From: Rhizobiales bacterium NRL2
GTDB lineage: Bacteria; Pseudomonadota; Alphaproteobacteria; Minwuiales; Minwuiaceae
Direction of reading: 5' to 3'
DNA length: 64,000 nucleotides
Assembly: GCA_001664005.1 (NCBI GenBank)
Contig: CP016093.1
Coordinates: forward strand, 999,001 to 1,063,000
Shown piece by piece: positions 9,638-14,031 of the stretch. A program made the position numbers and the translations under genes. Numbering within the stretch: the first letter of the stretch is position 1; every line of letters starts with the position of its first letter. The notes beneath the pieces are model-generated. The model searched no databases, had not been told where the DNA came from, and saw only the letters and a list, made by a program, of their open reading frames with translations.

Positions 9638-10354
9638 TCAGAAACTGCGCGAGACCGAGAAGATCACCGTGGCCCCGCAGCCGTCGCCGCAGGAGGATTC
9701 GTCGGTGTCGACATAGTTGAGCGCGAAGTCGAAGCCCCAATAGGAGCGCGACAGCCCGAGCGACCAGGTCAGGTAATCGGGCACGCCGAAGGTCGCCTCG
9801 TCGTCGATGAACTGGTAGCCGACGGTGCCGCCCAGTTCGAACTCGTAGGGCAGGGGCACCGCGACGCCGCCTTCGATGAACAGGGCGTCGCCGGAATTGC
9901 CGAAGTTCTCCGGCGAATAGTTGAAGCCCAGCGAGGTGGAGAAGCGCTCGAAATCGTAGCCCAGGCCCAGCGCGGCCTCGACGAAGTCGAAGTCGTTCCT
10001 GGCGCTGGCGCCCGGATACCAGTAGTAGATCAGGCCCAGATCGTAGGACAAGTTGTCGATCGAACCGGCGTAGCCGCCATAGAAGTCCATCTCGATATGG
10101 GCGTTGCCGAAGTTCACGTTCGACGCCCAGGTGCCCAGATAGAAGCCGCTGTCGTGGGACCAGTCGAACCCGCCCTGGATGGCCGGTTCGTTGTCGGTCT
10201 GCGTGATGCCGCGGAACCGGTAGTCCGTGACGATTCCGACATTGGCCGAGAACTCGCCCGGGATCATGGCCTCCTCTTCGGCATGGACCGGACCCGAAAA
10301 CGCGAACGCAGCCATGGCCACAGCCGTGGCCGCCGCGAGTGCCTTGAAATTCAT
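9638..10354 (-). CDS. TorF-type putative porin (outer-membrane beta-barrel)
   Basis: A 238-residue exported protein of the TIGR02001/TorF family. A signal peptide (residues 1-25, ending PVHA before EEE) is followed by the family opening FSANVGIVTDYRFRGITQTDNEPAIQGGFD, with alternating aromatic residues and a final beta strand ending in Phe (VIFSVSRSF), as expected for an outer-membrane barrel. I chose ATG 10354; an in-frame TTG at 10372 has no better ribosome site. The transported solute is unknown. It has its own terminator and lies divergent from the repeat-protein/cyclase operon. A degenerate TGCA-type site lies about 90 bp upstream. Confidence 0.88.
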   Translation of the reverse strand: MNFKALAAATAVAMAAFAFSGPVHAEEEAMIPGEFSANVGIVTDYRFRGITQTDNEPAIQGGFDWSHDSGFYLGTWASNVNFGNAHIEMDFYGGYAGSIDNLSYDLGLIYYWYPGASARNDFDFVEAALGLGYDFERFSTSLGFNYSPENFGNSGDALFIEGGVAVPLPYEFELGGTVGYQFIDDEATFGVPDYLTWSLGLSRSYWGFDFALNYVDTDESSCGDGCGATVIFSVSRSF

Positions 10355-10437
10355 GTGCTTGAACACTCCCAATTCCCAAAGGGACGCCGCCCCCTTGCGG
10401 CGTTGGCGCTTGACCTAGCAAGGCCGGGGCCATTTCT

Positions 10438-10787: not shown

Positions 10788-11750
10788 ATGGCTCTGACGG
10801 CGCTGGACAAGGAAGCCGATATCCGGCACCTGCAGCGGACAGTGTCTGCGATGCGGGAGACGCTGGAGCAGAAGGACGTCGAGATCCGCCGCCGCGTCCA
10901 GAAGGCGGAGGCCGATGCCGCCGGCGAGATCCGTACGCTGAAGGATACCGCCCAGGCGCTGAGGGACGAGCTGGAAGAGGAGCGCCGGCGCGGCGCCGTG
11001 CTGGCGCAGCGGGAGCGGCAGTCGGCGGCGTCCGAGATCGGCACGCTCAAGGACACCGCCCAGGCGCTGCGGGATACGCTGGAGGACCAGCGCACGGAGA
11101 CCCAGCGCCTGGTGCAGGCGGAGAAGCAGGCCGCGGCGACCGAGATCCAGCAGCTGAAAGACACCGCGCAGGCGCTGCGCGACACGCTGGAGGACCAGCG
11201 CGCCGAAGCCCAGCGCATGGTGCAGGCGGAGAAGCAGGCGGCGGCGGCGGAAATCGGCCAGCTGAAGGACACCGCGCAGGCGCTGCGCGACACGCTGGAG
11301 GATCAGCGCGCCGAGGCCCAGCGCCTGATACAGGCGGAAAAGCAGGCGGCGGCGGCCGAGATCGGTCAGCTCAAGGAGACCGCCCAGGCCCTGCGCGATA
11401 CGCTGGAGGATCAGCGCGTGGAGACGCGCCGGCTGGTTCAGTCCGAGAAACAGGCAGCTGCGGCGGAGATATCGCAGCTCAAGGAGACGGTGCAGAACCT
11501 GCGCGACGAGATGGACGAGATCCGCCGCCGGGGCCAGGCCGAGACGCAGCGGGCGAAGGCGCTCGGCGCAGCGGAGGCCGGCCAGCTCAGACAGACCATC
11601 CAGTCGTTGCGCGACGAGATGGACGCCATTTGCGGCGAACACCGCGAGGAACGCCAGGCCATGGAGCGGGCGCAGAGGGACGAACTGAAGCAACTCAGGA
11701 CGACCATCCAGCGCCTTCGCGACCGCCTGGAGGAGATCGAGAATGTATGA
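10788..11750 (+). CDS. Coiled-coil protein built of 36-residue repeats, coupled to an adenylyl cyclase
   Basis: A 320-residue protein with no signal peptide and no membrane segment. From residue 11 to the end it consists of about 8.6 units of 36 residues. Units 2-5 are the most alike (core LKDTAQALRDTLEDQR), unit 0 and units 6-8 diverge. Proline is absent and there is one cysteine, Cys282 in DAICGEHREE. The whole chain should be one long helix, probably a dimeric rod. A 36-residue period is neither a heptad nor a hendecad multiple but equals two of each. The stop overlaps the next start by 8 bp (ATG at 11743), so it is translationally coupled to the cyclase. I do not recognise a named family; a scaffold or dimer clamp for the cyclase is an inference. 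Confidence 0.88.
   Translation: MALTALDKEADIRHLQRTVSAMRETLEQKDVEIRRRVQKAEADAAGEIRTLKDTAQALRDELEEERRRGAVLAQRERQSAASEIGTLKDTAQALRDTLEDQRTETQRLVQAEKQAAATEIQQLKDTAQALRDTLEDQRAEAQRMVQAEKQAAAAEIGQLKDTAQALRDTLEDQRAEAQRLIQAEKQAAAAEIGQLKETAQALRDTLEDQRVETRRLVQSEKQAAAAEISQLKETVQNLRDEMDEIRRRGQAETQRAKALGAAEAGQLRQTIQSLRDEMDAICGEHREERQAMERAQRDELKQLRTTIQRLRDRLEEIENV
10818..11747 (+). repeat. Tandem 108-bp coding repeats (about 8.6 copies)
   Basis: Units begin at 10818, 10926, 11034, 11142, 11250, 11358, 11466, 11574 and 11682 (last one partial). Copies 11034-11465 are the most alike at DNA level, with synonymous changes between them. This suggests expansion by recombination followed by drift under protein-level selection. 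Confidence 0.88.
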
Positions 11751-14031
11751 GAACCCGCGCGGCACGCGAAAGAACCAGAACCTTTCGCAGTCCGAGCACA
11801 TCAAGCAGCTGCAGATGCTGCTCGACGTTTCCCGTCAGGTCGCCGCGCTGGATACGCTGGACGCGGTGCTCGACACGCTGGTCAGCGTCGCGGTCGCCGA
11901 GACCAAGGCCGAGCGCGGCACCCTGTTCCTGCACGACGCGATGACGGGCGAACTGTTCTCCCGCGTCGCTCAGGGCCTCAAGCGCCACGAGATCCGCATC
12001 CTGGACAATGTCGGCATCGCCGGTCACACCTTCCAGTCGGGCGAAGGCCAGATCATTCATGACGCCTACAACGACGAACGCTTCAACCGCGACGTCGACG
12101 CCGAGACGGGCTTCACCACCAAGTCGATCCTCGCCGCGCCCGTGCGCAACGCCAAGGGCGAGGTGATCGGCGTCGCCCAGGTGCTGAACAAGAAGGAAGG
12201 TCAGTTCACGGAAATGGACCTGACCGTGCTGGAGGGCATGACCACCCAGTGCGCCATCACCCTGCAGTCGATGCAGCTCGTCGAGCGCATGGAAACGACG
12301 CGCCAGCGCGAGATCGAATTCCTCAACATCGTCTCCGACATGACCTCCGAACTCGAACTGACGCGCCTGCTGCAGCGGGTGATGTCGGAGGCGACGCGGA
12401 TGCTGGACGCGGAACGCTCGACGCTGTTCATCAACGACGAGAAGACCAACGAGCTGTTCAGTCATGTGGGAGAGGGGCTGGACTCGGTCGAGATCCGGTT
12501 GCCGAACCATCTCGGCATCGCCGGCGCGGTGTTCACGTCCGGCGATACGGTGAACATCCCCTATGCCTATGCCGACCTGCGCTTCAATCCGGGCTTCGAC
12601 AAGCAGACGGGCTTCTTCACCCGCTCGATCCTGTGCGTGCCCGTGGTCAACAAGGCCGGCAAGGTGATCGGCGTGACCCAGGCCCTGAACAAGAAGGGCG
12701 GGCCCTTCACCAGCGACGACGAGAGCCGGCTGAAGGCCTTCACCGCGCAGATCGCCATCGGTCTGGAGAACGCCAAGCTGTTCGGCGATGTCCAGGCGAT
12801 GAAGAACTACAACGAGTCCATGCTGCAATCGATGTCGAACGGCGTCATCACCTTCGACGAGGATGGCGAGAACAAGACCTGCAACGCCGCCGGTGCGCGC
12901 ATCATGCGTACCTCGGCCAAGGACATCCTGGGCAAGAAGCCCGAGGAGGTGTTCGGCGAGCAGAACCAGTGGCTGGTCGACAAGATCGCCCGCGTCGCCG
13001 AGACCGACGAGGGCGAAAGCATGCTCGATACCGAACTCAAGATCGGCGACGAGAAGGCGTCCGTGAACGTGACCGTCCTGCCCATGCAGTCGGGCGAGGG
13101 GGCCTCGCTCGGCACGCTGGTCATGATCGAGGATATCTCCGACGCCAAGCGCGCCAGGTCGACGCTGTCGCGTTACATGGATCCGGGACTGGCCGACCAG
13201 ATGCTGGCCGGCGGCAACCAGGACGACATCCTGGGCGGCAAGGACACCATCGCGACGGTGCTGTTCTCCGACGTGCGCAGCTTCACCACCATTACCGAGA
13301 AGCTGGGCGCGCAGGGCACCGTGGCGCTGCTCAACGACTATTTCGAACTGATGGTCGACTGCATCTCCGATCAGGGCGGCATGCTCGACAAGTTCATCGG
13401 CGACGCGATCATGGCCGCCTTCGGCATTCCGCTGCCCCATGACGACGACGAGGACCGGGGGCTCCGCGCCGGCATCAACATGATCAAGACATTGTGGGAC
13501 TGGAACAAGACCCGCGTCGCGAAGGGCGAGATGGCCGTCGACATGGGACTGGGGCTGAACACCGATTCCATCGTCGCCGGCAATATCGGCTCGAAGAAAC
13601 GCATGGACTACACGATGATCGGCGACGGCGTGAACCTCGCCGCGCGGCTGGAGAGCGCCTGCAAGCAGTACTCGGCGCGCATCCTGCTTTCGGAATACAC
13701 CGTCGCCAAGCTGAAGGGCGTCTACCGCCTGCGCGAGGTCGACAAGGTGGTGGTGAAGGGCAAGACCAAGCCGGTCGGCGTGTTCGAATGCCTCGACTAC
13801 CACACCGACGAGACCTTCCCGAACCTGATGGATGTGCTCGGCAACTTCAACGAAGGCGTCAAGCAGTACCGCAAGCAGGAATGGGACCGCGCCACCGGCT
13901 ATTTCAGGGAAGCGCTGAAGGCGAACGAGACCGACAAGCTCGGCAACATGTACATTGAGCGCTGCGAACTGATGAAGAAGGCGCCGCCCGGCGACGACTG
14001 GGACGGCGTCTGGATCATGACCGAGAAATAG
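11743..14031 (+). CDS. Class III adenylyl cyclase, GAF-GAF-PAS-CHD (CyaB1-like)
   Basis: A 762-residue cytosolic cyclase. Two GAF domains (about 30-185 and 205-355) are followed by a PAS-like segment (about 365-475) and the catalytic domain (about 500-690), then a short helical tail. Catalytic residues are all present: metal Asp510 (FSDVRSF) and Asp554 (FIGDAIMA), purine-selecting Lys550 and Asp622 (KRMDYT), transition-state Asn631 and Arg635 (NLAAR). Lys/Asp specifies ATP over GTP. GAF-B holds a full NKFDE motif (Asn316, Lys317, Phe322, Asp326, Glu327), the cyclic-nucleotide-binding signature; GAF-A has Leu160 in place of Glu. This order matches Anabaena CyaB1/CyaB2, where cAMP binding to GAF stimulates synthesis. 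It overlaps the repeat-protein gene and precedes folP by 15 bp. Confidence 0.93.
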   Translation: MYENPRGTRKNQNLSQSEHIKQLQMLLDVSRQVAALDTLDAVLDTLVSVAVAETKAERGTLFLHDAMTGELFSRVAQGLKRHEIRILDNVGIAGHTFQSGEGQIIHDAYNDERFNRDVDAETGFTTKSILAAPVRNAKGEVIGVAQVLNKKEGQFTEMDLTVLEGMTTQCAITLQSMQLVERMETTRQREIEFLNIVSDMTSELELTRLLQRVMSEATRMLDAERSTLFINDEKTNELFSHVGEGLDSVEIRLPNHLGIAGAVFTSGDTVNIPYAYADLRFNPGFDKQTGFFTRSILCVPVVNKAGKVIGVTQALNKKGGPFTSDDESRLKAFTAQIAIGLENAKLFGDVQAMKNYNESMLQSMSNGVITFDEDGENKTCNAAGARIMRTSAKDILGKKPEEVFGEQNQWLVDKIARVAETDEGESMLDTELKIGDEKASVNVTVLPMQSGEGASLGTLVMIEDISDAKRARSTLSRYMDPGLADQMLAGGNQDDILGGKDTIATVLFSDVRSFTTITEKLGAQGTVALLNDYFELMVDCISDQGGMLDKFIGDAIMAAFGIPLPHDDDEDRGLRAGINMIKTLWDWNKTRVAKGEMAVDMGLGLNTDSIVAGNIGSKKRMDYTMIGDGVNLAARLESACKQYSARILLSEYTVAKLKGVYRLREVDKVVVKGKTKPVGVFECLDYHTDETFPNLMDVLGNFNEGVKQYRKQEWDRATGYFREALKANETDKLGNMYIERCELMKKAPPGDDWDGVWIMTEK

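Follow-up and report, generated by a model that had tools for sequence, protein, structure and literature searches.

The window, that is, the whole stretch of 64,000 nucleotides analysed from Rhizobiales bacterium NRL2, contains two adjoining genes on the forward strand. The first (10788–11750) encodes a coiled-coil repeat protein of 320 amino acids made of nine gapless 36-residue units, and the second (11743–14031) encodes, from an ATG start, a protein of 762 amino acids with the order GAF-GAF-PAS-class III cyclase, as seen from the open reading frame, Pfam and the predicted structure. The stop codon of the coil gene (TGA) and the start codon of the cyclase gene (ATG) share an overlap of 8 nt (11743–11750, forward strand), and translational coupling of the two genes is possible. 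The initial annotation had given the cyclase gene its exact coordinates, and Pfam and the model bore out its domains, but the accompanying coil gene upstream (10788–11750) had been overlooked. A putative TorF-family outer-membrane porin gene (9638–10372, reverse strand) diverges from the pair, and the region between it and the coil gene would hold the promoter. No sigma-70-like site was found upstream of the pair in a promoter scan, the sigma-70 model being uninformative for this organism. Downstream in the window lie folP and glmM. The neighboring ORFs of the family loci included no common downstream gene, and conserved neighbors other than the coil gene were rejected, folP and glmM not being kept across the family.

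Tandem Repeats Finder identified a 108-bp repeat in 5.2 copies within the coil gene (10925–11485, forward strand), which encodes the 36-residue units. These units follow one another without gaps and read roughly E-I-x-Q-L-K-x-T-x-x-A-L-R-D-E-L-E, with arginine at positions 20, 56 and 92 in 72–73 of 73 sequences. The hydrophobic period was 3.60, and a unit of 36 residues corresponds to 10 hydrophobic steps. We read 36 as two heptads plus two hendecads, which would give a nearly straight coiled coil. Judged by register counts, the repeat number ranges from 2 to 11 among relatives, with nine in the window. The gene is under strong purifying selection (dN/dS of 0.03–0.10 between close relatives). 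The only Pfam match of the window protein was Ax_dynein_light at 23.1 bits, below the cut-off of 26.4, and the C-terminal segments of 34 coil proteins matched many unrelated coiled-coil families weakly and none consistently. No convincing match was obtained among solved structures, no sensor or membrane segment was recognisable, and the coil profile had no further match in the rest of the genome. Antisense ORFs over the coil gene also form a cluster, but only because they mirror it.

In the cyclase, Pfam recognized two GAF domains (8e-37), PAS_4 (2e-13) and Guanylate_cyc (4e-22). Together with the predicted structure, these matches place GAF-A at residues 39–176 (11857–12270), GAF-B at residues 206–343 (12358–12771), the PAS domain at residues 358–470 (12814–13152) and the catalytic domain at residues 497–690 (13231–13812), all on the forward strand and in the same order as in proteins of the CyaB1/CyaB2 type. 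A C-terminal segment (residues 695–746; 13825–13980, forward strand) forms three helices in the predicted structure; it had no Pfam match, and we read these helices as possibly TPR-like. The full-length AlphaFold model, in which PAS spans residues 366–465 and the cyclase domain residues 500–690, had a mean pLDDT of 82 and a pTM of 0.46, and its domain arrangement is uncertain because the pTM is low. Each of the six same-genus genomes searched had the protein at 82–99% identity, and a chance or frame artefact was ruled out by conservation, dN/dS and structure.

As the initial annotation had stated, every catalytic residue is present: the alignment shows the two metal-binding aspartates D510 and D554, the K550/T624 pair for adenine, and the transition-state asparagine N631 and arginine R635, and all six were constant in 64 aligned relatives except for one unread R635. 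The Lys/Thr pair is that of adenylyl cyclases such as CyaB1. The model of the catalytic domain superposed on Pseudomonas aeruginosa CyaB (3r5g) with Z 27.0 and rmsd 2.1 over 190 residues, and it also matched the adenylyl cyclase 1wc1. Judged from its residues, the enzyme probably makes cAMP.

The two GAF domains differ in their NKFDE motifs. GAF-B has the complete motif (N316, K317, F322, D326 and E327; 12688–12723, forward strand), while GAF-A has N149, K150, F155 and D159 with Leu160 in place of the Glu (12187–12222, forward strand); the alignment thus agrees with the residues first annotated. D326 and E327 were found in all 64 aligned relatives, and position 317 was K or R. At position 160, the same relatives had L (51), R (5), Q (4), M (3) or I (1), and never E. 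A looser count by regular expression over 109 loci gave DE in GAF-B in 109 and E in GAF-A in none. The asymmetry of an NKFD GAF-A lacking Glu and an NKFDE GAF-B is therefore a fixed trait of the family. Outside it, a rough scan of 60 genomes of the phylum, limited to the top-scoring Pfam GAF matches and sometimes reading the wrong frame, showed no complete NKFDE.

The claim that GAF-B senses cAMP has indirect support. The motif is insufficient for it: PDE5 GAF-B also bears NKFDE in the alignments and is not the cGMP-binding GAF of PDE5, so that NKFDE by itself does not establish cyclic-nucleotide binding. In addition, the NKFDE residues make no direct contact with the ligand (PMC11977230). The pocket speaks for the claim. 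In CyaB2 GAF-B, cAMP is contacted by R291, T293, I308, D356 and N359 (PMC4411481), and alignments with 1YKD set these against R225, T227, V242, D286 and T289 of GAF-B in the window, which are constant or nearly so among the 64 relatives; T289 replaces N359, and CyaB2 GAF-A likewise has T there. GAF-B was also the best-conserved domain (mean 0.85 vs 0.80 for the linker plus cyclase, 64 relatives). A separate model of GAF-B (pLDDT 81) matched PDE10A GAF-B best (Z 22.9, rmsd 2.3, 159 residues), followed by PDE2A GAF-B (22.5), an HD-GYP GAF (4mcw, 22.1), CyaB2 (21.5) and PDE6C (20.5), with the PtsP GAF (20.1) close behind. Fold and pocket residues favor a cyclic-nucleotide site in GAF-B, short of proof, and GAF-B is likely to bind cAMP. 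The equivalent pocket residues of GAF-A (R58, T60, V75, D119 and T122) look intact, so the absent Glu by itself is no proof that GAF-A is empty.

Relatives of the cyclase at 55–88% identity were found in Alpha-, Beta-, Gamma- and Zetaproteobacteria, Magnetococcia, Nitrospirota and Thermodesulfobacteriota, and beyond the genus scattered genomes of other families had it at 45–65% identity. Scanning species genomes brought up 473 tandem-GAF relatives, from which the best 80 were kept (64–88% identity over the tandem GAF region); all of these 80 came from phyla other than cyanobacteria. The named groups among these best 80 of 473 were Minwuia, Rhodospirillales, Erythrobacter, Rhodocyclaceae, Gallionella, Massilia, Duganella, Methylobacter, Mariprofundus, Magnetococcales, Nitrospirota and Syntrophales, and some of the bins were plainly mislabelled (e.g. 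Klebsiella and Bordetella). In even samples, the subfamily (at least 55% identity) was present in 26 of 398 genomes of the phylum and in 25 of 289 genomes of the class. In a tree of 87 proteins, sequences grouped mostly by class, and the window cyclase fell with Minwuia-like genomes. The initial annotation regarded the architecture as mostly cyanobacterial; for genomes this statement fails, because relatives are spread through Pseudomonadota, where the architecture is common, and occur in a few further phyla. A mainly cyanobacterial architecture, or a recent transfer from cyanobacteria, found no support in this tree of non-cyanobacterial proteins, in which proteobacterial groups cluster. A plasmid search returned only weak matches with partial query coverage. 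In Erythrobacter sp. NAP1 (L043), the pair is ~79–80% identical to that of the window, far closer than its order predicts, and transfer is possible. Among the best 80 of 473, iron oxidisers (Gallionella, Mariprofundus) are numerous as holders of the pair, as are lineages of magnetotactic bacteria (Magnetococcales, Magnetominusculus), which may be a sampling effect.

Clustering of neighboring ORFs gave a single family lying directly upstream of the cyclase on the same strand, at 73 loci including the window. Among relatives, the cyclase start overlapped the coil gene in 45 of 72 and lay at most 60 nt away in 69 of 72. At eight loci the coil gene was missed at first pass: it lay in an overlapping frame in five, only its 3′ end was present, at a contig edge, in two, and upstream DNA was missing in one. 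The coil gene preceded the cyclase gene at every informative locus, that is, wherever the contig was long enough. In two additional sets of genomes, a profile made from the last 96 residues of the coil matched all complete loci of the family, and the genomes with a profile match were identical to those with the cyclase (at least 55% identity): 26 of 26 among the 398 of the phylum and 25 of 25 among the 289 of the class (Fisher p ~1e-41 and ~1e-36, taking genomes as independent, which they are not). No profile match was found in genomes of these two samples that had divergent cyclases only (30–47% identity), the next subfamily out (42–47% identity) has no coil, and no free-standing coil gene was found in the sampled genomes. 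One genome of the same phylum (G089; L138:1045–3753) has a natural fusion, with coil repeats on the N-terminus of the cyclase in a single open frame; it is a single case from a draft genome on a long tree branch. The conserved gene order is evidence of functional linkage and no demonstration of contact. A literature search of open-licence papers yielded nothing relevant on GAF cyclases paired with a coiled-coil protein. The cyclase itself is of a known kind, and the strict coiled-coil partnership seems to be the new and unreported part.

Considering these results, we lean towards reading the locus as a two-gene signaling module that would consist of an adenylyl cyclase with a cAMP-binding, self-stimulating GAF-B and a dedicated coiled-coil rod that binds, clusters or positions it. 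In this proposal, the second gene would encode an adenylyl cyclase that is soluble and probably dimeric, and the helices joining GAF-A, GAF-B and PAS may control its catalytic output. GAF-B would most likely bind cAMP and raise activity, giving positive feedback as in Anabaena CyaB2, and GAF-A, with its intact-looking pocket, would probably serve in structure or as a secondary sensor. A long straight rod of 36-residue repeats would come from the first gene; it most likely attaches to the cyclase and gathers it into clusters or sets its position. The gene structure, the residues and their conservation, the gene order, the strict co-occurrence and the one fusion are direct results; from them we infer cAMP as both product and ligand, the feedback, and the contact between coil and cyclase. 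In the 4.7-Mb genome (G000) there are 13 class III cyclase domains, alongside about a dozen matches to cNMP-binding domains, which makes cAMP effectors plausible. More tentatively, the pair may be an undescribed second-messenger module in which a rod scaffolds an adenylyl cyclase that stimulates itself; it would be the bacterial equivalent of anchored cAMP signaling.

Other explanations of the locus concern the ligand and the coil. If GAF-B bound cGMP or another small molecule, the cyclase would be cross-regulated and not self-stimulated. The GAF fold and the NKF-D frame also occur in GAFs of other roles (4mcw and PtsP), 4mcw, whose ligand is unstated, fits GAF-B equally well (Z 22.1), and isolated CyaB2 GAF-B binds cGMP too (PMC4411481). 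Nevertheless, the R-x-T and D-x-x-T pattern of GAF-B is that of the cAMP-binding CyaB2, and the rough scan of 60 genomes brought no further complete NKFDE outside the cyclase family; we consider such a ligand unlikely. Similarly doubtful is a coil that makes no contact with the cyclase and is co-transcribed only for dosage or translational coupling, or that fills some other structural need of the pathway. Such an explanation would suit the generic nature of coiled coils and a repeat number that varies between 2 and 11, but the perfect co-occurrence, the want of a free-standing coil in the sampled genomes, the strong purifying selection and the natural fusion argue against it. Least probable to us is a coil that acts as regulator, sensing an input (e.g. 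mechanical, envelope or cytoskeletal) and switching the cyclase, with GAF-B setting the baseline only; its strict pairing with this cyclase subfamily alone would suit such a role, but the coil has no recognisable sensor, membrane segment or convincing Pfam match.

Among known systems, Anabaena CyaB1 and CyaB2 (CyaB2 GAF structure 1YKD) share the GAF-GAF-PAS-class III cyclase order and the NKFDE of GAF-B, and CyaB2 also the cAMP-contact pattern R-x-T, V/I, D-x-x-T/N. In contrast, CyaB2 GAF-A binds cAMP as well and its NKFDE is complete, whereas that of GAF-A in the window (Leu160) and in its relatives (Glu in 0 of 64) is not; this is a difference of detail from CyaB2 and not a requirement of the tandem-GAF cyclase kind. 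The family also differs from the Anabaena enzymes in its spread through Pseudomonadota, and in the non-cyanobacterial genomes sampled it has the coiled-coil partner gene. The tandem GAF regions of mammalian PDE2, PDE5, PDE6 and PDE10 resemble it in GAF fold, NKFDE and tandem order and supplied the top structural matches to GAF-B, but their output is a phosphodiesterase and feedback runs in the opposite direction. P. aeruginosa CyaB (3r5g) and Spirulina CyaC share the catalytic fold and residues, at 37% and 30% identity, respectively. In P. aeruginosa CyaB there is a membrane sensor and, to our knowledge, no tandem GAF. An alphaproteobacterial sister subfamily (L020, L164 and L165; 44–47% identity) has the same GAF-GAF-PAS-cyclase order, but the 36-residue-repeat gene is absent upstream and elsewhere in its genomes.

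Tandem-GAF cyclases were the model for the reading of cyclic nucleotides by GAF domains, but studies centred on Anabaena; a large proteobacterial branch is now seen, whose GAF-A/GAF-B asymmetry is fixed and which has a dedicated partner. Should the coil organize the cyclase, bacteria would own a built-in means of confining cAMP production. Being small and soluble and occurring in culturable genera (Massilia and Duganella), the pair is open to direct test. A related cyclase at L021:1501–4242 has membrane helices, a HAMP-like region, one GAF, a PAS and a cyclase domain, and has no coil gene. Moreover, records of Methylophilales phages of the Melnitz group (MZ577095–MZ577098) contain a class III cyclase catalytic domain with 31% identity to the window enzyme.
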